64,000 bases of DNA from Sipunculus nudus. Lineage: Eukaryota > Annelida > Sipuncula > Golfingiida > Sipunculidae. Positions 385-33,990 of this stretch are shown here, one piece after another. The translations under genes and the position numbers were made by a program. The notes beneath the pieces were generated by a model that made no database searches, was not told the origin of the DNA, and saw only the letters and a program-made list of their open reading frames with translations. Numbering within the stretch: the first letter of the stretch is position 1; each line of letters begins with the position of its first letter. The DNA is taken from assembly GCA_026874595.1 (NCBI GenBank), contig CM049321.1, positions 19,374,979 through 19,438,978 on the forward strand. Reading direction: 5' to 3'.

Positions 385-822
385 GATGAAAAAACATGAA
401 AATTTGTTTTGGTGCTATACCTCCAGAACTATTAAACATTGGGCCATTTCCATCACAGCACCTTAAACTAGGGTCCATGGGCTTATTTTTGCGCATAGGT
501 GCCAAAGTGCGCTATTGCCAGATTTCTCTATTTTTGGGGTAAAACCTTTGAATTTTGAAAATATGCAGTTTTCAGCTTCTAACTCTGTCAGTTTTTATGC
601 TGGAGAGGTCAAAATTTTTGCATCTTGTAGCCCTTGGTGAGTTCTCGGTGATCCAACCAAAAATCTTGCAAAATCTCGCACCGTTTCTCGTCGAATGAGA
701 TTTCGCGATTTCACGGTGACATGCCCTATAGGCCACAGATATGCAGGCATCCTTTTGAAACTGATACATGTTACGTCATACACTAATATCTCGAAAGCAA
801 TTGTTCAGTTTTTGGAAAATTA

Positions 823-840
823 CCGCTAGGGGGCGCTGCA
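823..840 (+). promoter_or_regulatory. CTCF-like motif, primary site of the satellite unit (representative)
   Basis: The 18-mer CCGCTAGGGGGCGCTGCA closely resembles the known bilaterian CTCF core (CCA-C/T-AG-GGGGCGC type). It recurs once per unit at 2098, 3372, 4646, 5920, 7194, 8468, 9742, 11016, 12291, 13565, 14839, 16113, 17387, 18661, 19935, 21210 (one C-to-T change), 22268, 23326, 24601, 25875 and 27150, always on the + strand. Binding is inferred from the motif only. Confidence 0.5.
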
Positions 841-2511
841 CTGCAACCCCGTACCTACTATCATTGTTTAACCATATCTCCAAAACTACACATTTTAGGT
901 ACATAAACTGTACACCATATGAATTGGCGTTTCATGGCCTTTCTGCCCATGACCTCTTTTGTTTAATCATACACGGTCCCCGCAAATTTTAGCAACTTTG
1001 TAAAAATTAAAACCCGCATGCACAAATACATATGCCATCACGCATGCATGCACGCGTTTTAGTATGAAAGACAGACACGCTTTCCCGTGACTGTAAAAAT
1101 TATAGCGTTCGCCGTATAAAATAAGTGACCACAGGCACTCTTTGCGGGCCGGTTTGCCATTTCTGTCGCGTTATAGTTTATTGCTTGCCGGAATCAGAGA
1201 TTTCGACAAGTATGTTGATCAGTTCCGTTTGTTTGTTTGTCTGTATGTCCCCGCTCTACAGGCCACAATTTTGCACCAATCGTCCTGATACTTATAGATA
1301 GAGTGTATAATCGGTTCTTCTCGGAGCCTATTGTTTTTGGTCATGATCGGTCAAGGGTCAAGGTCAGGGTCACCAAAAAGCTCAAAAACGGTTTTTTTCT
1401 TCATACCTTCGTCAAAAATAGCCGTAGGCACCTAATCTGTAGCCCGTTTTATTTGCCACTGCATGGCCACTTCCAACACTGCAAAATTGCCTCATTTCGC
1501 TGTTACCATGGTTACGCAATTTTGGGGAGAAATCATGGAATTTCGTGATATTTTTCAAATTTGCAGCAATTTTACTGATTCTGAGATATTTTATGTAACA
1601 TAAGAATATCTCGAAACGGGTTTTTCAGATTTTGGAAATGGCCTTCAGGGGGCGTTGCAGATGAAAAAACATGAAAATTTGTTTTGGTGCTATACCTCCA
1701 GAACTATTAAACATTGGGCCATTTCCATCACAGCACCTTAAACAAGGGTCCATGGGCTTATTTTTGCGCATAGGTGCCAAAGTGCGCTATTGCCAGATTT
1801 CTCTATTTTTGGGGTAAAACCTTTGAATTTTGAAAATATGCAGTTTTCAGCTTCTAACTCTGTCAGTTTTTATGCTGGAGAGGTCAAAATTTTTGCATCT
1901 TGTAGCCCTTGGTGAGTTCTCGGTGATCCAACCAAAAATCTTGCAAAATCTCGCACCGTTTCTCGTCGAATGAGATTTCGCGATTTCACGGTGACATGCC
2001 CTATAGGCCACAGATATGCAGGCATCCTTTTGAAACTGATACATGTTACGTCATACACTAATATCTCGAAAGCAATTGTTCAGTTTTTGGAAAATTACCG
2101 CTAGGGGGCGCTGCACTGCAACCCCGTACCTACTATCATTGTTTAACCATATCTCCAAAACTACACATTTTAGGTACATAAACTGTACACCATATGAATT
2201 GGCGTTTCATGGCCTTTCTGCCCATGACCTCTTTTGTTTAATCATACACGGTCCCCGCAAATTTTAGCAACTTTGTAAAAATTAAAACCCGCATGCACAA
2301 ATACATATGCCATCACGCATGCATGCACGCGTTTTAGTATGAAAGACAGACACGCTTTCCCGTGACTGCAAAAATTATAGCGTTCGCCGTATAAAATAAG
2401 TGACCACAGGCACTCTTTGCGGGCCGGTTTGCCATTTCTGTCGCGTTATAGTTTATTGCTTGCCGGAATCAGAGATTTCGACAAGTATGTTGATCAGTTC
2501 CGTTTGTTTGT

Positions 2512-5500
2512 TTGTCTGTATGTCCCCGCTCTACAGGCCACAATTTTGCACCAATCGTCCTGATACTTATAGATAGAGTGTATAATCGGTTCTTCTCGGA
2601 GCCTATTGTTTTTGGTCATGATCGGTCAAGGGTCAAGGTCAGGGTCACCAAAAAGCTCAAAAACGGTTTTTTCTTCATACCTTCGTCAAAAATAGCCGTA
2701 GGCACCTAATCTGTAGCCCGTTTTATTTGCCACTGCATGGCCACTTCCAACACTGCAAAATTGCCTCATTTCGCTGTTACCATGGTTACGCAATTTTGGG
2801 GAGAAATCATGGAATTTCGTGATATTTTTCAAATTTGCAGCAATTTTACTGATTCTGAGATATTTTATGTAACATAAGAATATCTCGAAACGGGTTTTTC
2901 AGATTTTGGAAATGGCCTTCAGGGGGCGTTGCAGATGAAAAAACATGAAAATTTGTTTTGGTGCTATACCTCCAGAACTATTAAACATTGGGCCATTTCC
3001 ATCACAGCACCTTAAACTAGGGTCCATGGGCTTATTTTTGCGCATAGGTGCCAAAGTGCGCTATTCCTAGATTTCTCTATTTTTGGGGTAAAACCTTTGA
3101 ATTTTGAAAATATGCAGTTTTCAGCTTCTAACTCTGTCAGTTTTTTTGCTAGAGAGGTCAAAATTTTTGCATCTTGTAGCCCTTGGTGAGTTCTCGGTGA
3201 TCCAACCAAAAATCTTGCAAAATCTCGCACCGTTTCTCGTCGAATGAGATTTCACGATTTCACGGTGACATGCCCTATAGGCCACAGATATGCAGGCATC
3301 CTTTTGAAACTGATACATGTTACGTCATACACTAATATCTCGAAAGCAATTGTTCAATTTTTGGAAAATTACCGCTAGGGGGCGCTGCACTGCAACCCCG
3401 TACCTACTATCATTGTTTAACCATATCTCCAAAACTACACATTTTAGGTACATAAACTGTACACCATATGAATTGGCGTTTCATGGCCTTTCTGCCCATG
3501 ACCTCTTTTGTTTAATCATACACGGTCCCCACAAATTTTAGCAACTTTGTAAAAATTAAAACCCGCATGCACAAATACATATGCCATCACGCATGCATGC
3601 ACGCGTTTTAGTATGAAAGACAGACACGTTTTCCCGTGACTGCAAAAATTATAGCGTTCGCCGTATAAAATAAGTGAGCACAGGGGCTCTTTGCGGGCCG
3701 GTTTGCCATTTCTGTCGCGTTATAGTTTATTGCTTGCCGGAATCAGAGATTTCGACAAGTATGTTGATCAGTTCCGTTTGTTTGTTTGTCTGTATGTACC
3801 CGCTCTACAGGCCACAATTTTGCACCGATCGTCCTGAAACTTATAGATAGAGTGTATAATCGGTTCTTCTCGGAGCCTATTGTTTTTGGTCAGGATCGGT
3901 CGAGGGTCAAGGTCAGGGTCACCAAAAAGCTCAAAAACGGTTTTTTCTTCATACCTTCGTCAAAAATTGCCGTAGGCACCTAATCTGTAGCCCGTTTTAT
4001 TTGCCACTGCATGGCCACTTCCAACACTGCAAAATTGCCTCATTTCGCTGTTACCATGGTAACGCAATTTTGGGGAGAAATCATGGAATTTCGTGATATT
4101 TTTCAAATTTGCAGCAATTTTACTGATTCTGAGATATTTTATGTAACATAAGAATATCTCGAAACGGGTTTTTCAGATTTTGGAAATGGCCTTCAGGGGG
4201 CGTTGCAGATGAAAAAACATGAAAATTTGTTTTGGTGCTATACCTCCAGAACTATTAAACATTGGGCCATTTCCATCACAGCACCTTAAACAAGGGTCCA
4301 TGGGCTTATTTTTGCGCATAGGTGCCAAAGTGCGCTATTGCCAGATTTCTCTATTTTTGGGGTAAAACCTTTGAATTTTGAAAATATGCAGTTTTCAGCT
4401 TCTAACTCTGTCAGTTTTTATGCTGGAGAGGTCAAAATTTTTGCATCTTGTAGCCCTTGGTGAGTTCTCGGTGATCCAACCAAAAATCTTGCAAAATCTC
4501 GCACCGTTTCTCGTCGAATGAGATTTCGCGATTTCACGGTGACATGCCCTATAGGCCACAGATATGCAGGCATCCTTTTGAAACTGATACATGTTACGTC
4601 ATACACTAATATCTCGAAAGCAATTGTTCAGTTTTTGGAAAATTACCGCTAGGGGGCGCTGCACTGCAACCCCGTACCTACTATCATTGTTTAACCATAT
4701 CTCCAAAACTACACATTTTAGGTACATAAACTGTACACCATATGAATTGGCGTTTCATGGCCTTTCTGCCCATGACCTCTTTTGTTTAATCATACACGGT
4801 CCCCGCAAATTTTAGCAACTTTGTAAAAATTAAAACCCGCATGCACAAATACATATGCCATCACGCATGCATGCACGCGTTTTAGTATGAAAGACAGACA
4901 CGCTTTCCCGTGACTGCAAAAATTATAGCGTTCGCCGTATAAAATAAGTGACCACAGGCACTCTTTGCGGGCCGGTTTGCCATTTCTGTCGCGTTATAGT
5001 TTATTGCTTGCCGGAATCAGAGATTTCGACAAGTATGTTGATCAGTTCCGTTTGTTTGTTTGTCTGTATGTCCCCGCTCTACAGGCCACAATTTTGCACC
5101 AATCGTCCTGATACTTATAGATAGAGTGTATAATCGGTTCTTCTCGGAGCCTATTGTTTTTGGTCATGATCGGTCAAGGGTCAAGGTCAGGGTCACCAAA
5201 AAGCTCAAAAACGGTTTTTTCTTCATACCTTCGTCAAAAATAGCCGTAGGCACCTAATCTGTAGCCCGTTTTATTTGCCACTGCATGGCCACTTCCAACA
5301 CTGCAAAATTGCCTCATTTCGCTGTTACCATGGTTACGCAATTTTGGGGAGAAATCATGGAATTTCGTGATATTTTTCAAATTTGCAGCAATTTTACTGA
5401 TTCTGAGATATTTTATGTAACATAAGAATATCTCGAAACGGGTTTTTCAGATTTTGGAAATGGCCTTCAGGGGGCGTTGCAGATGAAAAAACATGAAAAT

Positions 5501-8500
5501 TTGTTTTGGTGCTATACCTCCAGAACTATTAAACATTGGGCCATTTCCATCACAGCACCTTAAACTAGGGTCCATGGGCTTATTTTTGCGCATAGGTGCC
5601 AAAGTGCGCTATTCCTAGATTTCTCTATTTTTGGGGTAAAACCTTTGAATTTTGAAAATATGCAGTTTTCAGCTTCTAACTCTGTCAGTTTTTTTGCTAG
5701 AGAGGTCAAAATTTTTGCATCTTGTAGCCCTTGGTGAGTTCTCGGTGATCCAACCAAAAATCTTGCAAAATCTCGCACCGTTTCTCGTCGAATGAGATTT
5801 CACGATTTCACGGTGACATGCCCTATAGGCCACAGATATGCAGGCATCCTTTTGAAACTGATACATGTTACGTCATACACTAATATCTCGAAAGCAATTG
5901 TTCAATTTTTGGAAAATTACCGCTAGGGGGCGCTGCACTGCAACCCCGTACCTACTATCATTGTTTAACCATATCTCCAAAACTACACATTTTAGGTACA
6001 TAAACTGTACACCATATGAATTGGCGTTTCATGGCCTTTCTGCCCATGACCTCTTTTGTTTAATCATACACGGTCCCCACAAATTTTAGCAACTTTGTAA
6101 AAATTAAAACCCGCATGCACAAATACATATGCCATCACGCATGCATGCACGCGTTTTAGTATGAAAGACAGACACGTTTTCCCGTGACTGCAAAAATTAT
6201 AGCGTTCGCCGTATAAAATAAGTGAGCACAGGGGCTCTTTGCGGGCCGGTTTGCCATTTCTGTCGCGTTATAGTTTATTGCTTGCCGGAATCAGAGATTT
6301 CGACAAGTATGTTGATCAGTTCCGTTTGTTTGTTTGTCTGTATGTACCCGCTCTACAGGCCACAATTTTGCACCGATCGTCCTGAAACTTATAGATAGAG
6401 TGTATAATCGGTTCTTCTCGGAGCCTATTGTTTTTGGTCAGGATCGGTCGAGGGTCAAGGTCAGGGTCACCAAAAAGCTCAAAAACGGTTTTTTCTTCAT
6501 ACCTTCGTCAAAAATTGCCGTAGGCACCTAATCTGTAGCCCGTTTTATTTGCCACTGCATGGCCACTTCCAACACTGCAAAATTGCCTCATTTCGCTGTT
6601 ACCATGGTAACGCAATTTTGGGGAGAAATCATGGAATTTCGTGATATTTTTCAAATTTGCAGCAATTTTACTGATTCTGAGATATTTTATGTAACATAAG
6701 AATATCTCGAAACGGGTTTTTCAGATTTTGGAAATGGCCTTCAGGGGGCGTTGCAGATGAAAAAACATGAAAATTTGTTTTGGTGCTATACCTCCAGAAC
6801 TATTAAACATTGGGCCATTTCCATCACAGCACCTTAAACTAGGGTCCATGGGCTTATTTTTGCGCATAGGTGCCAAAGTGCGCTATTGCCAGATTTCTCT
6901 ATTTTTGGGGTAAAACCTTTGAATTTTGAAAATATGCAGTTTTCAGCTTCTAACTCTGTCAGTTTTTATGTTGGAGAGGTCAAAATTTTTGCATCTTGTA
7001 GCCCTTGGTGAGTTCTCGGTGATCCAACCAAAAATCTTGCAAAATCTCGCACCGTTTCTCGTCGAATGAGATTTCGCGATTTCACGGTGACATGCCCTAT
7101 AGGCCACAGATATGCAGGCATCCTTTTGAAACTGATACATGTTACGTCATACACTAATATCTCGAAAGCAATTGTTCAGTTTTTGGAAAATTACCGCTAG
7201 GGGGCGCTGCACTGCAACCCCGTACCTACTATCATTGTTTAACCATATCTCCAAAACTACACATTTTAGGTACATAAACTGTACACCATATGAATTGGCG
7301 TTTCATGGCCTTTCTGCCCATGACCTCTTTTGTTTAATCATACACGGTCCCCGCAAATTTTAGCAACTTTGTAAAAATTAAAACCCGCATGCACAAATAC
7401 ATATGCCATCACGCATGCATGCACGCGTTTTAGTATGAAAGACAGACACGCTTTCCCGTGACTGCAAAAATTATAGCGTTCGCCGTATAAAATAAGTGAC
7501 CACAGGCACTCTTTGCGGGCCGGTTTGCCATTTCTGTCGCGTTATAGTTTATTGCTTGCCGGAATCAGAGATTTCGACAAGTATGTTGATCAGTTCCGTT
7601 TGTTTGTTTGTCTGTATGTCCCCGCTCTACAGGCCACAATTTTGCACCAATCGTCCTGATACTTATAGATAGAGTGTATAATCGGTTCTTCTCGGAGCCT
7701 ATTGTTTTTGGTCATGATCGGTCAAGGGTCAAGGTCAGGGTCACCAAAAAGCTCAAAAACGGTTTTTTCTTCATACCTTCGTCAAAAATAGCCGTAGGCA
7801 CCTAATCTGTAGCCCGTTTTATTTGCCACTGCATGGCCACTTCCAACACTGCAAAATTGCCTCATTTCGCTGTTACCATGGTTACGCAATTTTGGGGAGA
7901 AATCATGGAATTTCGTGATATTTTTCAAATTTGCAGCAATTTTACTGATTCTGAGATATTTTATGTAACATAAGAATATCTCGAAACGGGTTTTTCAGAT
8001 TTTGGAAATGGCCTTCAGGGGGCGTTGCAGATGAAAAAACATGAAAATTTGTTTTGGTGCTATACCTCCAGAACTATTAAACATTGGGCCATTTCCATCA
8101 CAGCACCTTAAACTAGGGTCCATGGGCTTATTTTTGCGCATAGGTGCCAAAGTGCGCTATTCCTAGATTTCTCTATTTTTGGGGTAAAACCTTTGAATTT
8201 TGAAAATATGCAGTTTTCAGCTTCTAACTCTGTCAGTTTTTTTGCTAGAGAGGTCAAAATTTTTGCATCTTGTAGCCCTTGGTGAGTTCTCGGTGATCCA
8301 ACCAAAAATCTTGCAAAATCTCGCACCGTTTCTCGTCGAATGAGATTTCACGATTTCACGGTGACATGCCCTATAGGCCACAGATATGCAGGCATCCTTT
8401 TGAAACTGATACATGTTACGTCATACACTAATATCTCGAAAGCAATTGTTCAATTTTTGGAAAATTACCGCTAGGGGGCGCTGCACTGCAACCCCGTACC

Positions 8501-9160
8501 TACTATCATTGTTTAACCATATCTCCAAAACTACACATTTTAGGTACATAAACTGTACACCATATGAATTGGCGTTTCATGGCCTTTCTGCCCATGACCT
8601 CTTTTGTTTAATCATACACGGTCCCCACAAATTTTAGCAACTTTGTAAAAATTAAAACCCGCATGCACAAATACATATGCCATCACGCATGCATGCACGC
8701 GTTTTAGTATGAAAGACAGACACGTTTTCCCGTGACTGCAAAAATTATAGCGTTCGCCGTATAAAATAAGTGAGCACAGGGGCTCTTTGCGGGCCGGTTT
8801 GCCATTTCTGTCGCGTTATAGTTTATTGCTTGCCGGAATCAGAGATTTCGACAAGTATGTTGATCAGTTCCGTTTGTTTGTTTGTCTGTATGTACCCGCT
8901 CTACAGGCCACAATTTTGCACCGATCGTCCTGAAACTTATAGATAGAGTGTATAATCGGTTCTTCTCGGAGCCTATTGTTTTTGGTCAGGATCGGTCGAG
9001 GGTCAAGGTCAGGGTCACCAAAAAGCTCAAAAACGGTTTTTTCTTCATACCTTCGTCAAAAATTGCCGTAGGCACCTAATCTGTAGCCCGTTTTATTTGC
9101 CACTGCATGGCCACTTCCAACACTGCAAAATTGCCTCATTTCGCTGTTACCATGGTTACG
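2512..9160 (+). repeat. Higher-order dimer (2,548 bp) inside the satellite
   Basis: Alternate units share private variants. Copies with landmarks at 3317, 5865 and 8413 have 'gctattcctag', 'tttttttgctagag', 'gttcaatttttgg', 'gagcacaggggctc', 'gtacccgctc' and 'caccgatcgtcctgaaac'. The intervening copies at 4591, 7139 and 9687 do not. Spacing of the variant copies is exactly 2,548 bp, twice the base unit. The pattern is absent from the rest of the array. Copies at 7139 and 9687 also share 'tatgttggag', not found in 4591. Confidence 0.9.
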
Positions 9161-12100
9161 CAATTTTGGGGAGAAATCATGGAATTTCGTGATATTTTTC
9201 AAATTTGCAGCAATTTTACTGATTCTGAGATATTTTATGTAACATAAGAATATCTCGAAACGGGTTTTTCAGATTTTGGAAATGGCCTTCAGGGGGCGTT
9301 GCAGATGAAAAAACATGAAAATTTGTTTTGGTGCTATACCTCCAGAACTATTAAACATTGGGCCATTTCCATCACAGCACCTTAAACTAGGGTCCATGGG
9401 CTTATTTTTGCGCATAGGTGCCAAAGTGCGCTATTGCCAGATTTCTCTATTTTTGGGGTAAAACCTTTGAATTTTGAAAATATGCAGTTTTCAGCTTCTA
9501 ACTCTGTCAGTTTTTATGTTGGAGAGGTCAAAATTTTTGCATCTTGTAGCCCTTGGTGAGTTCTCGGTGATCCAACCAAAAATCTTGCAAAATCTCGCAC
9601 CGTTTCTCGTCGAATGAGATTTCGCGATTTCACGGTGACATGCCCTATAGGCCACAGATATGCAGGCATCCTTTTGAAACTGATACATGTTACGTCATAC
9701 ACTAATATCTCGAAAGCAATTGTTCAGTTTTTGGAAAATTACCGCTAGGGGGCGCTGCACTGCAACCCCGTACCTACTATCATTGTTTAACCATATCTCC
9801 AAAACTACACATTTTAGGTACATAAACTGTACACCATATGAATTGGCGTTTCATGGCCTTTCTGCCCATGACCTCTTTTGTTTAATCATACACGGTCCCC
9901 GCAAATTTTAGCAACTTTGTAAAAATTAAAACCCGCATGCACAAATACATATGCCATCACGCATGCATGCACGCGTTTTAGTATGAAAGACAGACACGCT
10001 TTCCCGTGACTGCAAAAATTATAGCGTTCGCCGTATAAAATAAGTGACCACAGGCACTCTTTGCGGGCCGGTTTGCCATTTCTGTCGCGTTATAGTTTAT
10101 TGCTTGCCGGAATCAGAGATTTCGACAAGTATGTTGATCAGTTCCGTTTGTTTGTTTGTCTGTATGTCCCCGCTCTACAGGCCACAATTTTGCACCAATC
10201 GTCCTGATACTTATAGATAGAGTGTATAATCGGTTCTTCTCGGAGCCTATTGTTTTTGGTCATGATCGGTCAAGGGTCAAGGTCAGGGTCACCAAAAAGC
10301 TCAAAAACGGTTTTTTCTTCATACCTTCGTCAAAAATAGCCGTAGGCACCTAATCTGTAGCCCGTTTTATTTGCCACTGCATGGCCACTTCCAACACTGC
10401 AAAATTGCCTCATTTCGCTGTTACCATGGTTACGCAATTTTGGGGAGAAATCATGGAATTTCGTGATATTTTTCAAATTTGCAGCAATTTTACTGATTCT
10501 GAGATATTTTATGTAACATAAGAATATCTCGAAACGGGTTTTTCAGATTTTGGAAATGGCCTTCAGGGGGCGTTGCAGATGAAAAAACATGAAAATTTGT
10601 TTTGGTGCTATACCTCCAGAACTATTAAACATTGGGCCATTTCCATCACAGCACCTTAAACTAGGGTCCATGGGCTTATTTTTGCGCATAGGTGCCAAAG
10701 TGCGCTATTGCCAGATTTCTCTATTTTTGGGGTAAAACCTTTGAATTTTGAAAATATGCAGTTTTCAGCTTCTGACTCTGTCAGTTTTTATGCTGGAGAG
10801 GTCAAAATTTTTGCATCTTGTAGCCCTTGGTGAGTTCTCGGTGATCCAACCAAAAATCTTGCAAAATCTCGCACCGTTTCTCGTCGAATGAGATTTCGCG
10901 ATTTCACGGTGACATGCCCTATAGGCCACAGATATGCAGGCATCCTTTTGAAACTGATACATGTTACGTCATACACTAATATCTCGAAAGCAATTGTTCA
11001 GTTTTTGGAAAATTACCGCTAGGGGGCGCTGCACTGCAACCCCGTACCTACTATCATTGTTTAACCATATCTGCAAAACTACACATTTTAGGTACATAAA
11101 CTGTACACCATATGAATTGGCGTTTCATGGCCTTTCTGCCCATGACCTCTTTTGTTTAATCATACACGGTCCCCGCAAATTTTAGCAACTTTGTAAAAAT
11201 TAAAACCCGCATGCACAAATACATTTGCCATCACGCATGCATGCACGCGTTTTAGTATGAAAGACAGACACGCTTTCCCGTGACTGCAAAAATTATAGCG
11301 TTCGCCGTATAAAATAAGTGACCACAGGCACTCTTTGCGGGCCGGTTTGCCATTTCTGTCGCGTTATAGTTTATTGCTTGCCGGAATCAGAGATTTCGAC
11401 AAGTATGTTGATCAGTTCCGTTTGTTTGTTTGTCTGTATGTCCCCGCTCTACAGGCCACAATTTTGCACCAATCGTCCTGATACTTATAGATAGAGTGTA
11501 TAATCGGTTCTTCTCGGAGCCTATTGTTTTTGGTCATGATCGGTCAAGGGTCAAGGTCAGGGTCACCAAAAAGCTCAAAAACGGTTTTTTTCTTCATACC
11601 TTCGTCAAAAATAGCCGTAGGCACCTAATCTGTAGCCCGTTTAATTTGCCACTGCATGGCCACTTCCAACACTGCAAAATTGCCTCATTTCGCTGTTACC
11701 ATGGTTACGCAATTTTGGGGAGAAATCATGGAATTTCGTGATATTTTTCAAATTTGCAGCAATTTTACTGATTCTGAGATATTTTATGTAACATAAGAAT
11801 ATCTCGAAACGGGTTTTTCAGATTTTGGAAATGGCCTTCAGGGGGCGTTGCAGATGAAAAAACATGAAAATTTGTTTTGGTGCTATACCTCCAGAACTAT
11901 TAAACATTGGGCCATTTCCATCACAGCACCTTAAACTAGGGTCCATGGGCTTATTTTTGCGCATAGGTGCCAAAGTGCGCTATTGCCAGATTTCTCTATT
12001 TTTGGGGTAAAACCTTTGAATTTTGAAAATATGCAGTTTTCAGCTTCTAACTCTGTCAGTTTTTATGCTGGAGAGGTCAAAATTTTTGCATCTTGTAGCC

Positions 12101-21100: not shown

Positions 21101-21616
21101 CGGTGACATGCCCTATAGGCCACAGATATGCAGGCATCCTTTTGAAACTGATACATGTTACGTCATACACTAATATCTCGAAAGCAATTGTTCAGTTTTT
21201 GGAAAATTACTGCTAGGGGGCGCTGCACTGCAACCCCGTACCTACTATCATTGTTTAACCATATCTCCAAAACTACACATTTTAGGTACATAAACTGTAC
21301 ACCATATGAATTGGCGTTTCATGGCCTTTCTGCCCATGACCTCTTTTGTTTAATCATACACGGTCCCCGCAAATTTTAGCAACTTTGTAAAAATTAAAAC
21401 CCGCATGCACAAATACATATGCCATCACGCATGCATGCACGCGTTTTAGTATGAAAGACAGACACGCTTTCCCGTGACTGCAAAAATTATAGCGTTCGCC
21501 GTATAAAATAAGTGACCACAGGCACTCTTTGCGGGCCGGTTTGCCATTTCTGTCGCGTTATAGTTTATTGCTTGCCGGAATCAGAGATTTCGACAAGTAT
21601 GTTGATCAGTTCCGTT

Positions 21617-22180
21617 TGTTGCTTGCCGGAATCAAAGATTTCCGCAAGCATGTTGGTCAGTTGCGTATGTCTGTTTGTCTGTCTGTTTGTCTGTCTGTTT
21701 GTTTGTCTGCACTCTCCTGGCCACAATTTTGCCACAATCACCTTGAAACTTACAGGGATGATGAAAAACATTATTTCTAGGTGCCCTATTGTTTTTGGTT
21801 AAAATAGGTCAAAGGTCAAGGTCAAGGTCGTCAAAACTTCTCAAAACGTGTTTTTCTTCATATCTTTGTGACTATTAGTCGTATCTACTTCAACAATACC
21901 TTATTTTAATTGTCATTCCAAGGTCTGTCATCTGGTGTGTAGCTGACTCAAATTTGCCGTAACCATGGTTACAAATTTTAGGGGAAAAGTCATGATATTC
22001 GAAAATAAGGGGTCTTATTTTTCTAACTTTGTCAGTTTTAAAGCTAGAGTGATCTAGTTTTTTGCATCAGGTAGCATTCAACTAGTACTACAAGATTTTA
22101 TTACAAGTCTTGCAGTATCTCGTAAAATATCTCGTGAATAGAGATATTTCGAGATTTCATTCATCTTGCGCCAAAGGCCA
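21617..22180 (+). repeat. Variant block B (first copy) in a 1,058-bp unit
   Basis: After 'cagttccgtttgtt' the usual block is replaced by about 560 bp beginning 'gcttgccggaatcaaag'. It contains (TGTC/TGTT)n, 'aaaggtcaaggtcaaggtc' and a stretch ending 'gcgccaaaggccacag', after which the normal unit resumes. This shortens the repeat to 1,058 bp and removes the second GGGGGCG motif of the standard unit. Confidence 0.92.
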
Positions 22181-22674
22181 CAGATATGCAGGCATCCTTT
22201 TGAAACTGATACATGTTACGTCATACACTAATATCTCGAAAGCAATTGTTCAGTTTTTGGAAAATTACCGCTAGGGGGCGCTGCACTGCAACCCCGTACC
22301 TACTATCATTGTTTAACCATATCTGCAAAACTACACATTTTAGGTACATAAACTGTACACCATATGAATTGGCGTTTCATGGCCTTTCTGCCCATGACCT
22401 CTTTTGTTTAATCATACACGGTCCCCGCAAATTTTAGCAACTTTGTAAAAATTAAAACCCGCATGCACAAATACATATGCCATCACGCATGCATGCACGC
22501 GTTTTAGTATGAAAGACAGACACGCTTTCCCGTGACTGCAAAAATTATAGCGTTCGCCGTATAAAATAAGTGACCACAGGCACTCTTTGCGGGCCGGTTT
22601 GCCATTTCTGTCGCGTTATAGTTTATTGCTTGCCGGAATCAGAGATTTCGACAAGTATGTTGATCAGTTCCGTT

Positions 22675-23238
22675 TGTTGCTTGCCGGAATCAAAGATTTC
22701 CGCAAGCATGTTGGTCAGTTGCGTATGTCTGTTTGTCTGTCTGTTTGTCTGTCTGTTTGTTTGTCTGCACTCTCCTGGCCACAATTTTGCCACAATCACC
22801 TTGAAACTTACAGGGATGATGAAAAACATTATTTCTAGGTGCCCTATTGTTTTTGGTTAAAATAGGTCAAAGGTCAAGGTCAAGGTCGTCAAAACTTCTC
22901 AAAACGTGTTTTTCTTCATATCTTTGTGACTATTAGTCGTATCTACTTCAACAATACCTTATTTTAATTGTCATTCCAAGGTCTGTCATCTGGTGTGTAG
23001 CTGACTCAAATTTGCCGTAACCATGGTTACAAATTTTAGGGGAAAAGTCATGATATTCGAAAATAAGGGGTCTTATTTTTCTAACTTTGTCAGTTTTAAA
23101 GCTAGAGTGATCTAGTTTTTTGCATCAGGTAGCATTCAACTAGTACTACAAGATTTTATTACAAGTCTTGCAGTATCTCGTAAAATATCTCGTGAATAGA
23201 GATATTTCGAGATTTCATTCATCTTGCGCCAAAGGCCA
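22675..23238 (+). repeat. Variant block B (second copy)
   Basis: A second, apparently identical B block lies 1,058 bp after the first, so the two form a short tandem run of the 1,058-bp unit before the array reverts to 1,275-bp units. Confidence 0.92.
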
Positions 23239-26200
23239 CAGATATGCAGGCATCCTTTTGAAACTGATACATGTTACGTCATACACTAATATCTCGAAAG
23301 CAATTGTTCAGTTTTTGGAAAATTACCGCTAGGGGGCGCTGCACTGCAACCCCGTACCTACTATCATTGTTTAACCATATCTGCAAAACTACACATTTTA
23401 GGTACATAAACTGTACACCATATGAATTGGCGTTTCATGGCCTTTCTGCCCATGACCTCTTTTGTTTAATCATACACGGTCCCCGCAAATTTTAGCAACT
23501 TTGTAAAAATTAAAACCCGCATGCACAAATACATTTGCCATCACGCATGCATGCACGCGTTTTAGTATGAAAGACAGACACGCTTTCCCGTGACTGCAAA
23601 AATTATAGCGTTCGCCGTATAAAATAAGTGACCACAGGCACTCTTTGCGGGCCGGTTTGCCATTTCTGTCGCGTTATAGTTTATTGCTTGCCGGAATCAG
23701 AGATTTCGACAAGTATGTTGATCAGTTCCGTTTGTTTGTTTGTCTGTATGTCCCCGCTCTACAGGCCACAATTTTGCACCAATCGTCCTGATACTTATAG
23801 ATAGAGTGTATAATCGGTTCTTCTCGGAGCCTATTGTTTTTGGTCATGATCGGTCAAGGGTCAAGGTCAGGGTCACCAAAAAGCTCAAAAACGGTTTTTT
23901 TCTTCATACCTTCGTCAAAAATAGCCGTAGGCACCTAATCTGTAGCCCGTTTTATTTGCCACTGCATGGCCACTTCCAACACTGCAAAATTGCCTCATTT
24001 CGCTGTTACCATGGTTACACAATTTTGGGGAGAAATCATGGAATTTCGTGATATTTTTCAAATTTGCAGCAATTTTACTGATTCTGAGATATTTTATGTA
24101 ACATAAGAATATCTCGAAACGGGTTTTTCAGATTTTGGAAATGGCCTTCAGGGGGCGTTGCAGATGAAAAAACATGAAAATTTGTTTTGGTGCTATACCT
24201 CCAGAACTATTAAACATTGGGCCATTTCCATCACAGCACCTTAAACTAGGGTCCATGGGCTTATTTTTGCGCATAGGTGCCAAAGTGCGCTATTGCCAGA
24301 TTTCTCTATTTTTGGGGTAAAACCTTTGAATTTTGAAAATATGCAGTTTTCAGCTTCTAACTCTGTCAGTTTTTATGCTGGAGAGGTCAAAATTTTTGCA
24401 TCTTGTAGCCCTTGGTGAGTTCTCGGTGATCCAACCAAAAATCTTGCAAAATCTCGCACCGTTTCTCGTCGAATGAGATTTCGCGATTTCACGGTGACAT
24501 GCCCTATAGGCCACAGATATGCAGGCATCCTTTTGAAACTGATACATGTTACGTCATACACTAATATCTCGAAAGCAATTGTTCAGTTTTTGGAAAATTA
24601 CCGCTAGGGGGCGCTGCACTGCAACCCCGTACCTACTATCATTGTTTAACCATATCTCCAAAACTACAAATTTTAGGTACATAAACTGTACACCATATGA
24701 ATTGGCGTTTCATGGCCTTTCTGCCCATGACCTCTTTTGTTTAATCATACACGGTCCCCGCAAATTTTAGCAACTTTGTAAAAATTAAAACCCGCATGCA
24801 CAAATACATATGCCATCACGCATGCATGCACGCGTTTTAGTATGAAAGACAGACACGCTTTCCCGTGACTGCAAAAATTATAGCGTTCGCCGTATAAAAT
24901 AAGTGACCACAGGCACTCTTTGCGGGCCGGTTTGCCATTTCTGTCGCGTTATAGTTTATTGCTTGCCGGAATCAGAGATTTCGACAAGTATGTTGATCAG
25001 TTCCGTTTGTTTGTTTGTCTGTATGTCCCCGCTCTACAGGCCACAATTTTGCACCAATCGTCCTGATACTTATAGATAGAGTGTATAATCGGTTCTTCTC
25101 GGAGCCTATTGTTTTTGGTCATGATCGGTCAAGGGTCAAGGTCAGGGTCACCAAAAAGCTCAAAAACGGTTTTTTCTTCATACCTTCGTCAAAAATAGCC
25201 GTAGGCACCTAATCTGTAGCCCGTTTTATTTGCCACTGCATGGCCACTTCCAACACTGCAAAATTGCCTCATTTCGCTGTTACCATGGTTACGCAATTTT
25301 GGGGAGAAATCATGGAATTTCGTGATATTTTTCAAATTTGCAGCAATTTTACTGATTCTGAGATATTTTATGTAACATAAGAATATCTCGAAACGGGTTT
25401 TTCAGATTTTGGAAATGGCCTTCAGGGGGCGTTGCAGATGAAAAAACATGAAAATTTGTTTTGGTGCTATACCTCCAGAACTATTAAACATTGGGCCATT
25501 TCCATCACAGCACCTTAAACTAGGGTCCATGGGCTTATTTTTGCGCATAGGTGCCAAAGTGCGCTATTGCCAGATTTCTCTATTTTTGGGGTAAAACCTT
25601 TGAATTTTGAAAATATGCAGTTTTCAGCTTCTAACTCTGTCAGTTTTTATGCTGGAGAGGTCAAAATTTTTGCATCTTGTAGCCCTTGGTGAGTTCTCGG
25701 TGATCCAACCAAAAATCTTGCAAAATCTCGCACCGTTTCTCGTCGAATGAGATTTCGCGATTTCACGGTGACATGCCCTATAGGCCACAGATATGCAGGC
25801 ATCCTTTTGAAACTGATACATGTTACGTCATACACTAATATCTCGAAAGCAATTGTTCAGTTTTTGGAAAATTACCGCTAGGGGGCGCTGCACTGCAACC
25901 CCGTACCTACTATCATTGTTTAACCATATCTCCAAAACTACACATTTTAGGTACATAAACTGTACACCATATGAATTGGCGTTTCATGGCCTTTCTGCCC
26001 ATGACCTCTTTTGTTTAATCATACACGGTCCCCGCAAATTTTAGCAACTTTGTAAAAATTAAAACCCGCATGCACAAATACATATGCCATCACGCATGCA
26101 TGCACGCGTTTTAGTATGAAAGACAGACACGCTTTCCCGTGACTGCAAAAATTATAGCGTTCGCCGTATAAAATAAGTGACCACAGGCACTCTTTGCGGG

Positions 26201-27556
26201 CCGGTTTGCCATTTCTGTCGCGTTATAGTTTATTGCTTGCCGGAATCAGAGATTTCGACAAGTATGTTGATCAGTTCCGTTTGTTTGTTTGTCTGTATGT
26301 CCCCGCTCTACAGGCCACAATTTTGCACCAATCGTCCTGATACTTATAGATAGAGTGTATAATCGGTTCTTCTCGGAGCCTATTGTTTTTGGTCATGATC
26401 GGTCAAGGGTCAAGGTCAGGGTCACCAAAAAGCTCAAAAACGGTTTTTTTCTTCATACCTTCGTCAAAAATAGCCGTAGGCACCTAATCTGTAGCCCGTT
26501 TTATTTGCCACTGCATGGCCACTTCCAACACTGCAAAATTGCCTCATTTCGCTGTTACCATGGTTACGCAATTTTGGGGAGAAATCATGGAATTTCGTGA
26601 TATTTTTCAAATTTGCAGCAATTTTACTGATTCTGAGATATTTTATGTAACATAAGAATATCTCGAAACGGGTTTTTCAGATTTTGGAAATGGCCTTCAG
26701 GGGGCGTTGCAGATGAAAAAACATGAAAATTTGTTTTGGTGCTATACCTCCAGAACTATTAAACATTGGGCCATTTCCATCACAGCACCTTAAACTAGGG
26801 TCCATGGGCTTATTTTTGCGCATAGGTGCCAAAGTGCGCTATTGCCAGATTTCTCTATTTTTGGGGTAAAACCTTTGAATTTTGAAAATATGCAGTTTTC
26901 AGCTTCTAACTCTGTCAGTTTTTATGCTGGAGAGGTCAAAATTTTTGCATCTTGTAGCCCTTGGTGAGTTCTCGGTGATCCAACCAAAAATCTTGCAAAA
27001 TCTCGCACCGTTTCTCGTCGAATGAGATTTCGCGATTTCACGGTGACATGCCCTATAGGCCACAGATATGCAGGCATCCTTTTGAAACTGATACATGTTA
27101 CGTCATACACTAATATCTCGAAAGCAATTGTTCAGTTTTTGGAAAATTACCGCTAGGGGGCGCTGCACTGCAACCCCGTACCTACTATCATTGTTTAACC
27201 ATATCTCCAAAACTACACATTTTAGGTACATAAACTGTACACCATATGAATTGGCGTTTCATGGCCTTTCTGCCCATGACCTCTTTTGTTTAATCATACA
27301 CGGTCCCCGCAAATTTTAGCAACTTTGTAAAAATTATAACCCGCATGCACAAATACATATGCCATCACGCATGCATGCACGCGTTTTAGTATGAAAGACA
27401 GACACGCTTTCCCGTGACTGCAAAAATTATAGCGTTCGCCGTATAAAATAAGTGACCACAGGCACTCTTTGCGGGCCGGTTTGCCATTTCTGTCGCGTTA
27501 TAGTTTATTGCTTGCCGGAATCAGAGATTTCGACAAGTATGTTGATCAGTTCCGTT

Positions 27557-28120
27557 TGTTGCTTGCCGGAATCAAAGATTTCCGCAAGCATGTTGGTCAG
27601 TTGCGTATGTCTGTTTGTCTGTCTGTTTGTCTGTCTGTTTGTTTGTCTGCACTCTCCTGGCCACAATTTTGCCACAATCACCTTGAAACTTACAGGGATG
27701 ATGAAAAACATTATTTCTAGGTGCCCTATTGTTTTTGGTTAAAATAGGTCAAAGGTCAAGGTCAAGGTCGTCAAAACTTCTCAAAACGTGTTTTTCTTCA
27801 TATCTTTGTGACTATTAGTCGTATCTACTTCAACAATACCTTATTTTAATTGTCATTCCAAGGTCTGTCATCTGGTGTGTAGCTGACTCAAATTTGCCGT
27901 AACCATGGTTACAAATTTTAGGGGAAAAGTCATGATATTCGAAAATAAGGGGTCTTATTTTTCTAACTTTGTCAGTTTTAAAGCTAGAGTGATCTAGTTT
28001 TTTGCATCAGGTAGCATTCAACTAGTACTACAAGATTTTATTACAAGTCTTGCAGTATCTCGTAAAATATCTCGTGAATAGAGATATTTCGAGATTTCAT
28101 TCATCTTGCGCCAAAGGCCA
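27557..28120 (+). repeat. Variant block B (third copy), array edge
   Basis: The last homogeneous unit also carries block B. Homogeneity stops within it: after about 28,120 ('cattattgcaggaatc') the sequence continues into diverged relatives rather than the array consensus. Block B is therefore the junction between young array and old repeat. Confidence 0.9.
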
Positions 28121-31100
28121 CATTATTGCAGGAATCTTTTTGAAACTGACATATTATAAGTCCTACACTAGTATCTCGAAATCGTTTTTTCATTTTTTTA
28201 ATAGGGCCGATAGGGGGCGCTGGATGCGAACCTCCCGAACATATCATATTTTGGCCATATCTCCAAAATTATAAGCCTCAATTACATAAACTATAGCTTA
28301 TTTTCTTCCTCTGAGTCTTCTCCATAACTAGTGTAGTCATCTGGTCACAATTTTGTGACACTTTGTCAGTGTGTTTGTCTGTTTGTCAGTTGTCCTCAAA
28401 TTCGCCTGCTTGCTCTTGCGTCTCACATATAGCATTCTACAGGCCACAGTTTTGAAAGAATCCTTTTGAAACTATTACTTCTTAAGCCTTACACTAATAT
28501 CTCGAAACCAATTTTTCATTTTCCGGATATGGCCGCTAGGGGGCGCTGAACTCGAACCTCTCCCAACATATCATGCTTTGGCAATATCTCCAAAACTATA
28601 AACCTCAGTTACATAAACTGTAGTTTTTTTCTTCCTTTGAGTCTTCTCCATAACCTGGAGTAGTCATCTGGACTCAATATTGAGTCACTTTGTCAGTGTT
28701 TTCGTCTGTTTATCAGTTGTCCTCAAATTCGCCTGCTTGTTGGCTCTTGCGTCTCACATATAGCATTCTATAAGCCACAGTTTTGACTGAATCCTTTTGA
28801 TACTATTACATCTTATGTCTTACACTAATATCTAGAAATGAATTTTTCATTTTCCGGATATGGCCACTAGTGGGCGCTGCACACAAACCTCATACACATA
28901 CCATTGTATTGGCCATATCTCTACACCCAAAGCCTCAGTTACATAAACTATAGCTTATTTTCTTCCTTTGAGTCTTCTCCATAACCTGATTAAGGCATCT
29001 GGTTTCAATCTTCGGTCACTTTGTCAGTGTGTCCATCTGTTTGTCCGTTATCCTCATAGTCGCCTGCTTGCTGGTTCTTACGCCTTACATATAGCATTCT
29101 ACAGGCAACAGCTTTGACGGAATCCTTTTGAAACTGGGACAACTCATGTCATACACTAATAATACGAAACGCATTTGTCGTCTTCGGAATATGTCTGCTA
29201 GAGGGCGCTACAGTCGAGCCTCAATCACTAGGTTATGTCACCTGGTGTCAATCTTGTCTCACAAAAGTCACTATGTCTGTCTGTTCGTCTTTTGTTGTCA
29301 GCTTTGTCTGCTTGTCTGTTCTTTTGTCTCATATGTCATTCTACGGGCCACATATTCTCAGCAATGTCCCTGAGAATCATTCCATTAATAGAAAACCGAC
29401 AATATGTTCTGTCTGTCCGTCTGTGTTTCACTTCCGATTTCCGGCAAGCGTTCGACCTATGGTCGTCTAGTTTGTCTGTCTGTCTGTCTGTTTGTTTGTC
29501 TGTTTGTTTGTCGGTGCTCTTCAGGCCACAATTTTGCACGAATCGTCATGAAACTTATAGGTAAAGTGTAAGATCTGTTCTCCTCGGAGCCTATTGTTTT
29601 TGGTCATGATCGGTCAAAGGTCAAGGTCAGGGTCACCAAAAAACCTAAAATCTTTATTTTCTTCATATCTTCGTCAATAATAATCGTAGCCGCATAATCT
29701 GTAGCTCATTTTATTCCTCTTTATGTTACCTTTCCAAGTGCTTGCAAATTTTTCCGGTCAATTGTTAACATCGTAACGTATTTTTGGGGGGAAATCAGAA
29801 AATTCGAAAATTTCCCTCCAAATTTCTTATTTTTAAAGCTAGAGAGTTCTAGTTTTTTGCATCAGGTAGTATTTCATGAGGTGTTTATGATACAACTGTA
29901 AATCTCGCAAAATCTCGCACAATTTCTCGTCAAACGAGAGTTTTCGATATTTTATTAAATATGACCTGCAGGTTGCATTTTATTAACAATGGCTTTGAAA
30001 TTAATGTATTTTGTGTTATTTATAAATATCTCGAAATTGTTTTTTCATTTTTTGAAAATAGCCACCAGGGGGCGTGGTACTGGAAACACTACAACTTATT
30101 ATTTTTCCGCAATATCTTAAAAATTATTAAGCATATAACAATTTTTTTTGTCGCATCTAAAACTAAGATCATTGCCTTATTCCTTCGTACATTTAGCCTT
30201 GTGCTGCCGTTACCGTGGTTATCAAATTTTGGGGTAAAACTTGACAATCTGAAAATATGTAGTTTTTGGCTTCTATCTCGGTTGATATATATGTTTTAAG
30301 GGTCTAGTTTTTTGCATAAGGCTGCTTCCTCTTGGTTCTCAGTCATTCAATTGCAGGTCTCGTCAAATCTTGCTCGGTTTATTGCCAAACGAGAAATTAC
30401 GAGATTTCACAGAAATGCTTATAACTTGATCACGGTTAATGCCAAAATGGAGTAGTTTTCAGCATTTGGTAACATTTCAGAAGCCGGACATGATTGTATT
30501 GCAAATCTCGCCACATCTCGTATCATCTCCCGCCAAACGAGAATATTTTAGATTTCGAACAAATGTCTTTATCTCGGTCATTTTCATGCTAGATATTTTA
30601 TTTTTCTATTCTTCAAGAATCATTTGACTAGTTTTAAGTGACAAAAGTGAATATCTCGTAAAATCTCGCACCATTTGTCCTCAAACGAAAACAGAGGACC
30701 ATTTAAACAAATGCCTATAATGCTGTCATTTTTTACACTACAGACATATAGTTTTCAGCATGTGACAGCGTCTGACACTCGCAATCACATCATGTGATTT
30801 TATTGCAATTCTCGTCAAATCTTGCCTCGTTTTTCTTCAAATGATGAAAATACATCCAATTGCCGTGAGCACAAGTGGCTTCAGGGTTGACCGGTAAGTG
30901 CCGGCAAGGCTTTTACAGTTGCATGTTGGCGTGCGCGGTCGTCCATGAATCTCACAAAGCAGCATTGAATAGAGTACAAAAGCCGCTAAATGTGGAGGGA
31001 ACACACCTGTGATTTTTATTGTGTCCCCTTGTGCGGCCACTTGTGTTGCCAGGAACCACTAGCAAATCTTTGAAACCAGGGACGGATCCCCGATTTTGTA

Positions 31101-32399
31101 GTTGGGTGTGTCAAAATATGGGCTGATCCCTGGTTTAGCAGTTGGGGGCAGGGGTAAAATTTTAATTATACATCAAATATATATATTAAAATAAAATATC
31201 TGGAAACTTATTTTTTTCCTTTTAGAAAATAGCCCCCAGATGGCGCTGTAGCAATCATTATTATGCCATATCTCCAAAACTATAGACAGTGTCATTACAT
31301 TGATTGCAGCTTCTGAAACTATATTTAATGCGTTTAACCTTGTGGGGACTCTGTCGTATTCTGCGGGGGTTAAATTTTAATTATACATAAAATATATATA
31401 ATAAAAATTAGAATATCGCGAAACTATTTATTTTTCCTTTCAGATGGCGCTGCAGCAATCATTATTGTGCCATATCTCCAAACTATAGACGGTGTCACAA
31501 CATTGATTGCAGCTTTTGAACCAAGATTTAATGCGTTTTCCTCGTGGGGATATTGTCATATTCTGCAGAAGTTTAAATTTACTTATACATCAAATATTTA
31601 TTATAAAAAAATAATATCTCGAAACTTATTTTTTGTCCTTTTAATTACAACCGCCAGATGGCGCTGCAGCAATCATTATTTTGCCATATCTATAAAACTA
31701 TAGATAGTGTCACAACATTGATTGCAGCATCTGAAACTAGATTTAATGGGTTTATCCTCGTGAAGACTCTGTCATATTCTTCCGTTACCATTGGGGCCTG
31801 ATATAGGTTACAATTAAATTCTTCTTTTTCCTGAAATTCAAAATATGAAGATTTATTCTAATTGACTGACGCTTATTTTATTCATGCATTCCATTCTCCA
31901 TGACAGGAGTACATTGCCTACACATGGAGTTATTTTCCGTCTGTCTGTCTACTCATTTGTGGCTATTGAAAATCAGCGAAATCACATAAAAATGTGCTTC
32001 CATTTTAGCCATGATAGCGGTTGTTCATTTGATCAGATCCAAACGCTCCCTGTCTGTCTGCCTAGTAACTGTCCGTCTGTTTCGCTGTCTTATTTCCGGC
32101 TATTTCCGGAACTAGATTTAATGCATTTTACCTCGTGGGGACTCTGTCGTATTCTGCCGGGGCTAAATTTTAATTATACATCAAATATATATAATAAAAA
32201 AATAAAATATCTCGAAACTTTTTTTTGTCCTTTTAGAAATAGCTGCCAGATGGCGCTGCAGCAATCATTATTGTGCCATATCTCCAAAACTATAGACAGT
32301 ATTATACGTTCCCTGACAGTCTGCCTAGTAACTGTCCGTCTGTTTCGCTGTCTTATTACCGGCCATTTCCGGCAAGCGTTCGACCTCTGGTCGTCTAGT

Positions 32400-32893
32400 T
32401 TGTTGGTTTGTTTGTCTGCACTCTCCTGGCCACAATTTTGCCACAATCACCTTGAAACTTTCAGAGATGATGGAGAATTAAATTTCTAGGTGCCCTATTG
32501 TTTTTGGTCAAAATAGGTCAAAGGTCAAGGTCAAGGTCATCAAAATTTCTCAAAACGGTTTTTTCTTCATATCTTTGTGACTATAAGTCGTATCTACTTC
32601 AACAATAGCTCATTTTAATTGTCATTCCAAGGCCTGTCATCTGGTGTGTAGCTGACTCAAATTTGCCGTAACCATGGTTACAAATTTTTTGGGAAAAGTC
32701 ATGATATTCGAAAATAAGGGGTCTTATTTTTCTAACTTTGTCAGTTTTAAAGCTATAGTGATCTAGTTTTTTGCATCAGGTGGCATTCAACTAGTACTAC
32801 AAGATTTTATTACAAGTCTTGCAGTATCTCGTTAAATATCTCGTGAATAGAGATATTTCGAGATTTCATTCATCTTGCGCCAAAGGCCATATT
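32400..32893 (+). repeat. Diverged copy of satellite block B
   Basis: From 'tgtttgtctgcactctcctggcc' to 'catcttgcgccaaaggcc' this stretch matches block B of the array nearly base for base (for example 'attttgccacaatcaccttgaaactt', 'taaccatggttacaaattttt'), with scattered substitutions such as 'tttcagagatgatggag'. It shows that block B existed as a dispersed unit outside the tandem array. Confidence 0.88.
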
Positions 32894-33643
32894 ATTGCAG
32901 GAATCTTTTTGAAACTGACATATCATAAGTCCTACACTAGTATCTCGAAATTGTTTTTTCTTTTTTTTGAATATGGCTGCTAGGGGGCGCTGCATACGAC
33001 CCTCACACACATATTATTACATTGCCCATATCTCTAAAACCCAAAGCCTCAATTACATAAACTATAGCTTATTTTTTTCCTCTGAGTCTTCTCCATTAAC
33101 TGATAATGTCATCTGGTCTCAATCTTGTGTCACTTTGTCAGTATGTTTGTCTGTTTGTCAGTTGTCCTCAAATTTGGCTGCTTGCTGATTCTTGCGTCTC
33201 ACATATAGCATTCTACAGGCCACAGTTTTTAAAGAAGCATTTGAAAACTGATGCATATTATATTTTACAGAAATATCTCCAAACTTTTTTTTTCATTTTC
33301 CTGATATGGCCGCTAGGTGGCGCTGCACATGACCCTCACACACATATCATTATATTGACCATATCTCTAAAACCCAAAGCCTCAATTACAGAAACTATTG
33401 CTTATTTTCTTTCCCTGAGTCTTCTCCATGACCTGGTAATGTCATCTGGTCTCAATCTTGTGTCACTTTGTCAGTGTGTCTGTCTGTTTGTCAGTTGTCC
33501 TCAAACCCGCCTACTTGCTGGTTCTTGCGTGTCATATATAGCATTCTACAGGCCACAGTTTTTTTTCAGGAATCCTTTAAAACTGGTACATCTTATGTGT
33601 TACACTAATATCTCAAAACAGATTTTTCATTTTCCGGATATAG

Positions 33644-33659
33644 CCACTAGGGGGCGCTG
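33644..33659 (+). promoter_or_regulatory. CTCF-like motif in the diverged repeats (best of 12)
   Basis: CCACTAGGGGGCGCTG here is very close to the known CTCF consensus. Related cores occur at 28207, 28533, 28864, 29194, 30062, 31234, 31441, 31651, 32243, 32977 and 33310. They read AGGGGGCGCT, AGTGGGCGCT, AGAGGGCGCT, AGGTGGCGCT or AGATGGCGCT. All are on the + strand. The core is retained while surrounding bases differ. Confidence 0.45.
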
Positions 33660-33990
33660 CACCTTCACCTCCCCAACATATCATGTTTTGGCCATATCTC
33701 CAAAATTATAAACCTTATCTACATAAACTATCGCTAATTTTGCTCTTCTTTACCTTCGGCACTTTTGTCTGGTAATCTGTTATCACAGATGTGTCAGTAT
33801 GTCTGTCTGTTCGTCTTTTGAGGTCAGCTTTGTCTGCTTCCTCGTTGTTTTGTCTGATATGTCATTTTACAGGCCACAACTTCTCAGCAAACGCTGAGGG
33901 TCATTCAAATAATAGAAAACCCACAATATGTTCTGTCTGTCCATCTGTCTGTCATTTCAACTTCCGGCAAGCGCTCGACCTCTGGTCGTC

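Follow-up and report, generated by a model that had tools for sequence, protein, structure and literature searches.

The closest described counterparts of the locus reported here are non-autonomous Helentron rolling-circle elements (HINEs), such as those known from insects and mites as DINE-1 (PMC4067079) and Cg_HINE of Crassostrea gigas, which has a left subterminal inverted repeat (subTIR), an inverted repeat and a microsatellite, and a right subTIR with a palindrome (PMC7492417). In mammals CTCF binds a large tandem array, the X-linked DXZ4 macrosatellite, as was established by experiment (PMC3491370, PMC3218863). CTCF-like motifs are further described at squid boundaries and cephalopod loop anchors, and in squid their direction could not be shown. 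Mobile elements can also carry such sites, as rodent B2 short interspersed elements (SINEs) do. Here we analysed 64,000 nucleotides of the annelid Sipunculus nudus (assembly GCA_026874595.1, contig CM049321.1, positions 19,374,979 to 19,438,978 of the forward strand; hereafter the window), in which a satellite array and three adjoining diverged copies carry CTCF-like cores in a single orientation next to exons of RAD50. To judge from the end structures, the array almost certainly derives from a HINE family, and the reading we regard as best overall, at a probability of roughly 0.52, is that the CTCF-type site is carried to the advantage of the element itself.

An earlier note on this stretch, made from its letters alone, had described a one-way array of more than 30 CTCF-like motifs; the array was borne out and had been undercounted, as the window contains 54 cores, every one on the + strand (22 in the satellite, 20 in the second half of its unit and 12 in diverged copies). 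A search for CCGCTAGGGGGCGCTG at up to 3 mismatches returned 30 matches in the window, on the + strand only, with a mean of 0.12 in shuffled sequence. The 22 satellite cores with a single C-to-T change were recovered as claimed (module B, 21 exact copies and the variant at 21210), whereas a second, diverged core within the regular unit, CTTCAGGGGGCGTTG (module A, 20 copies), had been overlooked. The 12 diverged relatives at 28.2-33.7 kb do keep the core, one of them (31441) with its left part deleted, and this partial core was excluded from the score tests. Over 80 bp around their cores, modules A and B are 72.5% identical. The cores are as follows.

364..382, + strand: TGGCCTTCAGGGGGCGTTG (16.9 bits), the core of module A in the first unit; module A has 20 cores in all, the final one ending at 26709
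820..838, + strand: TTACCGCTAGGGGGCGCTG (23.4 bits), the core of module B in the first unit; module B has 22 cores in all, the final one ending at 27165
28211, 28537, 28868, 29199, 30066, 31237, 31441, 31655, 32247, 32981, 33314 and 33648, + strand: the 12 diverged cores, by the coordinate of the YAG step

The likeness to the CTCF consensus that the earlier note had pointed out lies far beyond chance. Scoring the window with a CTCF matrix, as that note had proposed, was done with a working version of the vertebrate matrix MA0139.1 and gave 50 sites on the + strand and none on the - strand at 16 bits or more, so that 50 of the 54 cores reach the threshold; 100 simulated windows held 0.3 such sites on average and 3 at most. 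At 12 bits or more, 53 sites lay on + and 4 on -. The best diverged core reaches 27.4 of 31.3 bits, and several diverged cores score above those of the satellite (23.4 and 16.9 bits) while others fall below, down to 13.1. The per-position p is 8.5e-9 for the satellite core and 1.4e-10 for the best copy. A chance origin of the cores was rejected from the shuffling and simulation expectations and from a genome search in which the reversed pattern had 0 matches against 4,792. A scan of IMG/VR with the 16-mer core matched 4 contigs, of which one (600 bp inspected) was unrelated GC-rich DNA, and these matches were taken as chance.

We also looked at the protein that would read these cores. A search of the genome with a working version of the finger region of human CTCF gave one outstanding match (373 bits, 56% identity over 308 residues, in an open frame), the next best reaching 198 bits, and the best PDB match of this orthologue is again CTCF (E 1.7e-109). 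It has 11 fingers, of which ZF3, ZF4 and ZF5 have the same recognition quartets as in human CTCF; in CTCF-DNA structures, ZF3-7 read the core of the binding site. Of the human residues, ZF7 retains R at -1 and D at 3 but not those at 2 and 6, ZF6 retains Q at -1 but not those at 2, 3 and 6, and each of the fingers other than ZF3-ZF5 differs from human at one recognition position at least. The next two finger matches were considered as CTCF and set aside, having 9 and 13 fingers and quartets unlike those of CTCF. From the letters of core and protein, we predict that the core is probably a real CTCF-binding sequence. The same search gave at least 320 C2H2 finger matches (contigs 16, 7 and 9), and among the matches listed many lay on contig 16 at 38-62 Mb, which may represent a zinc-finger gene expansion.

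The diverged copies retain ends of the element from which the array appears to be built.

27561..29470, + strand: diverged HINE copy 1, four modules, with the 5' subTIR and inverted repeat at 27561 and the 3' subTIR and palindrome at 29439-29470; 19-mer cores start at 28204, 28530, 28861 and 29192
27561..27589, + strand: 5' subTIR GCTTGCCGGAATC and complementary inverted repeat GATTTCCGCAAGC, forming a hairpin (-8.9 kcal/mol, z -2.57)
29471..32398, + strand: diverged HINE copy 2, which follows copy 1 head to tail, 3' end at 32367-32398; cores at 30059, 31230, 31441 (partial), 31648 and 32240
32399..33993, + strand: diverged HINE copy 3, 3' end at 33962-33993; cores at 32974, 33307 and 33641 (the best-scoring one)
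33962..33993, + strand: TTCCGGCAAGC as the 3' subTIR, next to the palindrome CGACC-TCT-GGTCG, after which come TCTAG and a T-rich stretch (the palindrome occurs in the predicted fold, with a z of only -1.33)

All three 3' ends (29439, 32367, 33962) consist of TTCCGGCAAGC, CGACC-nnn-GGTCG and TCTAGTTT, the palindrome being present in the predicted folds of each (z -1.1 to -1.7), and GCTTGCCGGAA is the reverse complement of the 3' subTIR. A GTTT/GTCT microsatellite follows the left-end hairpin, with TGTC/GTTT runs at 21668, 22726, 27608 and 29470. At the starts of copies 2 and 3 the subTIR scan found no match to the 5' subTIR, and the sequence downstream of the 3' end of copy 3 has no similarity to the satellite unit. 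The ends recur elsewhere in the genome: among 20 other fetched loci, the 5' end lies on the module strand in 19 (at up to 2 mismatches) and the 3' end in 18. Five of them (L023, L029, L030, L031, L032) hold both-ended elements with a 5' end, 2-4 modules and a 3' end, and L023 and L032, like copy 1, have four modules between both ends. The element ends adjoin T-rich letters in L023, L031 and L032. The genome also contains 143 Helitron_like_N matches, several within open frames of more than 2,200 aa.

With Cg_HINE these elements share the 5' subTIR, the complementary inverted repeat and 4-nt microsatellite, the 3' subTIR and palindrome, putative T-rich insertion sites, central repeats along the direction of the element and a link to satellite DNA (PMC7492417). 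They differ in that the Cg_HINE central repeats mostly measure 140-180 bp whereas the Sipunculus cores mostly lie 320-460 bp apart, and in that modules of different subfamilies recur here in one order in several elements; the sections of PMC7492417 compared here make no mention of a CTCF-type core. The DINE-1/HINE elements of insects and mites are alike in their subTIRs, the inverted repeat near the 5' subTIR, the microsatellite, the central repeats, the 3' stem-loop and a putative preference for TT, and the word CTCF is absent from the text of that paper (PMC4067079). DXZ4 resembles the window array as a large tandem array, and differs in its X linkage and its experimentally shown CTCF binding, the window array being a predicted CTCF target and one of many copies. 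With rodent B2 SINEs the family would share the spreading of near-consensus CTCF sites by the thousands on a mobile element; unlike them it is a rolling-circle element and also makes oriented multi-site satellites. The comparison drew on parts of PMC7492417, PMC4067079, PMC12407938, PMC9023564, PMC10658181, PMC10658182, PMC13317027 and PMC7854359. Among the open-licence PMC papers searched, none mentions both Helentron and CTCF, and 23 mention CTCF along with Helitrons. A literature search with the motif letters had, among the 20 of 46 papers listed, one CTCFL paper and otherwise none relevant by title.

The genome searched (1.43 Gb, 153 contigs) holds 4,792 exact 16-mer cores (0 for the reversed control), 7,116 matches to CCRSYAGRKGGCGCTG (1 for the control), 803 copies of one exact 32-bp 3' end and 1,358 copies of an exact 37-bp piece of the satellite unit, so the array of the window is one of many. 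The several modules of an element all point the way the element does, their cores 200-460 bp apart. Modules contained 119 hits of at least 16 bits; a module end lay no more than 60 bp away for 116 of these, and all 116 are on the strand of that module. The single orientation of the array thus follows from the structure of the element. A further 10 hits of at least 16 bits fell outside detected modules in 154 kb, 5 of them without another copy in the window and the 20 fetched loci, so CTCF-like sites beyond the HINE family exist as well. Among the matches listed, satellite units and 3' ends on contig 1 are all on the - strand at 64.5-65.9 Mb and all on the + strand at 65.97-66.41 Mb, and mixed beyond; these form a divergent pair of oriented arrays near 65.9-66.4 Mb, perhaps around a centromere.

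The satellite itself has a regular structure.

1..27560, + strand: satellite array of 1,274/1,275-bp units, the window beginning inside the array (from regular unit comparison, two-core alignment and end motifs)
21226..23325, + strand: two chimeric 1,058-bp units, in which satellite sequence runs into the head of the neighbouring diverged element; the two units are 99.9% identical

Each regular unit consists of the 5' subTIR, inverted repeat and microsatellite, a head, and modules A and B with one core each. The 19 regular units, measured between successive B cores, differ from their consensus by 0-13 substitutions. Units 2-7 (2098-9741) alternate between two types and form a dimeric higher-order repeat, in which the first two dimers differ at 2 positions and neighbouring units at 19. 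The chimeric units switch at AGGCCACA, about 85-90 bp ahead of the core and near the start of the module, and the core was for this reason rejected as their crossover point; their junction is identical to that at the edge of the array (27.5 kb). The array seems to have grown by ordinary unequal exchange, with homogenisation of its units. The unit heads, and also 29620 and 32520, contain GGTCAAGGTCA-type repeats, another possible host-factor site, which we take to resemble nuclear-receptor half-sites.

The earlier note had proposed that modules be aligned and the core compared with its flanks, retention of the core in old copies being taken to suggest selection. In the window, represented by 14 modules, among which a single A and a single B module stand for all satellite copies, the core indeed changes less by parsimony (1.53 changes per site) than the left and right flanks (2.39 and 2.84), although a block TTACACTAATATCTCGAAA about 40 bp upstream of each core is about as well kept and stands lower still (1.32). 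As this block is kept better than the core, the window alone is inconclusive by that note's own test. A similar block, ATATCTCCAAAA, follows about 50 bp after the core. Using flank-only profiles trained on core-bearing window modules, no module without at least part of the core was found in the window at E<0.01.

Between module subfamilies the difference is clear. From the window and the 20 loci, chosen by the core, 147 modules were reduced to 124 by dropping near-identical copies per locus, and fell into 28 subfamilies, 17 of them single modules; two truncated modules in these loci (L018 at ~6291 and L027 at 321) lack an intact core. Among the 28 subfamily consensuses the mismatch is 20.5% in the core and 37.8% in the flanks, the core ranking second of 145 windows for low mismatch behind the same window shifted by one. 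In subfamilies with a core other than the sequence searched for (non-seed), differences affect 15 of 734 letters in the core and 277 of 5,561 in the flanks (p 1.6e-4), of which 11 and 117 are private changes (p 0.33); counted by sites, shared variants give p 0.022 and private ones p 0.29. In the seed-type subfamilies neither shared nor private variants differ between core and flank. A tree of 122 modules (the core-chosen 124 minus 2 for gaps, the truncated L018 module included) gives 1.53 changes per site in the core against 3.45 in the flanks on internal branches, and 3.74 against 4.86 on terminal ones (2x2 p 0.015); at G/C sites the internal rates are 1.53 and 4.16.

A second sample was drawn blind to the core, from 30 loci found by one exact 3' end and thus of one lineage of ends, 10 of them lying within loci first fetched by the core. 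Its 135 left-flank hits gave 117 modules (17 exact duplicates and 1 edge module dropped), with a tree built from flanks only, and the core string of the truncated L018 module is absent from its list. All 117 flank-profile modules have an alignable core, which scores at least 12 bits in 111 and at least 16 bits in 91. On internal branches 21 core and 351 flank changes were counted (1.11 vs 2.40 per site), and the 2x2 contrast between internal and terminal branches has p 0.009. On terminal branches 43 core and 353 flank changes occur (2.26 vs 2.42 per site, p 0.75), which weighs against selection on individual copies. Since G and C are more frequent in the core than in the flanks, the counts were split by base: at G/C sites core and flank change at 1.00 vs 3.17 per site internally and 2.13 vs 3.09 terminally (terminal p 0.06, 2x2 p 0.019), and at G/C non-CpG sites internally at 0.73 vs 3.02. 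The retention of the core described by the earlier note is borne out between lineages, on internal branches, where the core is clearly better kept; for single copies the all-site comparison (p 0.75) and the G/C non-CpG comparison (p 0.0055, given below) part ways. With the matched G/C result, constraint at the level of the element and of the copy are not separated, and decay of the core at an ordinary rate in single copies, which we had considered, is weakened by the fewer changes at matched sites.

If CTCF is the reader, changes in the core should follow its preference, and here part of the evidence agrees. In the window set, changes land on CTCF-tolerated bases beyond random expectation (p 0.0002 when each family is represented by one module, 0.0016-0.0026 when counted on the tree), and subfamily-level core changes favour tolerated bases (p 0.019) while private ones do not (p 0.12). 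On the 122-module tree, an internal change costs a mean of 1.15 bits of score and a terminal one 2.90 (p 0.041), and changes on internal branches become fewer with rising information content (Spearman -0.48, p 0.037). Both AGGGGGCGC and AGATGGCGC, which we take to be the two forms of the CTCF consensus, were found, in different HINE lineages of the 28-subfamily comparison. The core contains two CpGs, and vertebrate CTCF is hindered by methylation.

The following results weigh against an element-borne CTCF site kept for the element's own benefit. The CTCF-specific statistics are mixed: subfamily-level and private changes are alike in their effect on score (p 0.22), the correlation of information content with changes in the window set is Spearman -0.45 (p 0.053), with 21 of 374 slid positions as good, and it is -0.20 (p 0.42) in the core-blind set, while position 5, among the two most informative, is often changed (C to T at CpG). 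In the orthologue, three recognition positions of ZF6 and two of ZF7 are unlike the human ones, and the matrix and the human protein used here are both working versions. A neighbouring block, ATATCTCGAAA, is nearly as well kept as the core. The core-blind contrast between internal and terminal branches weakens in three random 80-module subsets (p 0.12, 0.018 and 0.28), has p 0.055 at non-CpG core positions alone and only p 0.13 at G/C non-CpG sites. There, terminal changes are themselves fewer in the core (1.45 vs 2.93 per site, p 0.0055), and so are private changes of the non-seed subfamilies at such sites (3/408 vs 40/1,392, p 0.009). This copy-level deficit at matched sites suits site-level constraint, mutation bias or conversion equally, and terminal branches contain some lineage change that would itself be able to yield it.

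The earlier note had placed the motifs inside or beside a DNA-repair gene, and RAD50 exons do lie 3' of the array on the same strand.

34638..34781, + strand: RAD50 zinc-hook exon (CPLC), approximate borders; Rad50_zn_hook 26 bits against a Pfam cut-off of 24.3
57226..57363, + strand: RAD50 C-terminal ATPase exon (..CSAGQKV), approximate borders; RAD50 E 7e-14

Because the zinc hook belongs to the middle of the protein (in the PDB match, residues 658-700 of 1,312), the array, which spans 27.5 kb beside these exons and has them on its 3' side, is most likely within an intron of RAD50. Further along the window, 60926-64000 holds LINE-like frames, namely a 348-aa frame and an endonuclease frame cut by the end of the window (Exo_endo_phos 43.7 bits).

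According to the reading we prefer, the satellite would have been amplified from a family of HINEs, each with several modules in the element's direction and nearly every module with a CTCF-type sequence; host CTCF would bind the core, and its binding may help the element, for instance if the chromatin there thereby stays accessible to transcription, nicking or integration. Whether such a benefit would act on the element rather than on the single site we judge evenly poised. Any insulator-like property at RAD50 would then be a by-product of amplification that was not selected there. A host-selected directional insulator or loop anchor at RAD50, or host use of single copies as CTCF sites, has in its favour the dense one-way cores adjoining the RAD50 exons, the precedent of DXZ4 as a CTCF-bound tandem array, and the fewer copy-level core changes at G/C non-CpG sites in the core-blind set and in one of the comparisons made on non-seed subfamilies. 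We nevertheless hold it to be very doubtful, given that over all sites together the core decays in copies no more slowly, that the A-type core of the array is two bases off most copies in L020 and L021 (16.9 vs 23.5 bits), and that motif orientation is described as uninformative at echinoderm boundaries. The insulator function at this locus that the earlier note had drawn from core retention is not supported, since the family is dispersed by thousands and its orientation follows the element.

It is also conceivable, although unlikely, that the core is kept for the Rep/helicase of the element or for another host factor, its CTCF likeness being coincidence or convergence. Another module block nearly as well kept, the lack of a significant CTCF-shape correlation in the core-blind set and the Helitron_like_N matches, which show that such machinery exists, would fit this. 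Rolling-circle proteins act at element ends, and here the core lies apart from the end structures, while a match of the strength of the best copy and the occurrence of both consensus forms across different family lineages speak for CTCF itself. Retention with no functional constraint, owing to recent shared descent, locally slow mutation or conversion among copies, GC-biased or not, appears quite improbable. It would accord with the near-identical and partly dimeric satellite units, the exchange shown by the chimeric units and the terminal core deficits at matched sites, as well as with an 86.8%-identical duplication in whose three module pairs 6 of 57 core letters differ, as counted by eye, about the overall rate; against it stand the gap between flanks and core among subfamilies and the internal contrast, which survives at G/C sites in both the core-blind and the core-chosen sets.

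Several thousand oriented, near-consensus CTCF-type sites on a mobile element constitute a natural experiment on the use of CTCF outside vertebrates and flies, in which unique copies and arrays of known direction are suited to the study of occupancy, insulation and loop stopping. We put forward tentatively, from the sequence of the family, that a Helentron lineage carries functional CTCF sites, several to an element, for its own propagation and through tandem amplification has seeded thousands of oriented platforms, a counterpart of DXZ4. If this is true, such platforms may re-draw chromatin domains in Sipunculus, including at the divergent arrays of contig 1, and Helentron-derived satellites would enter the discussion of how three-dimensional genomes evolve.

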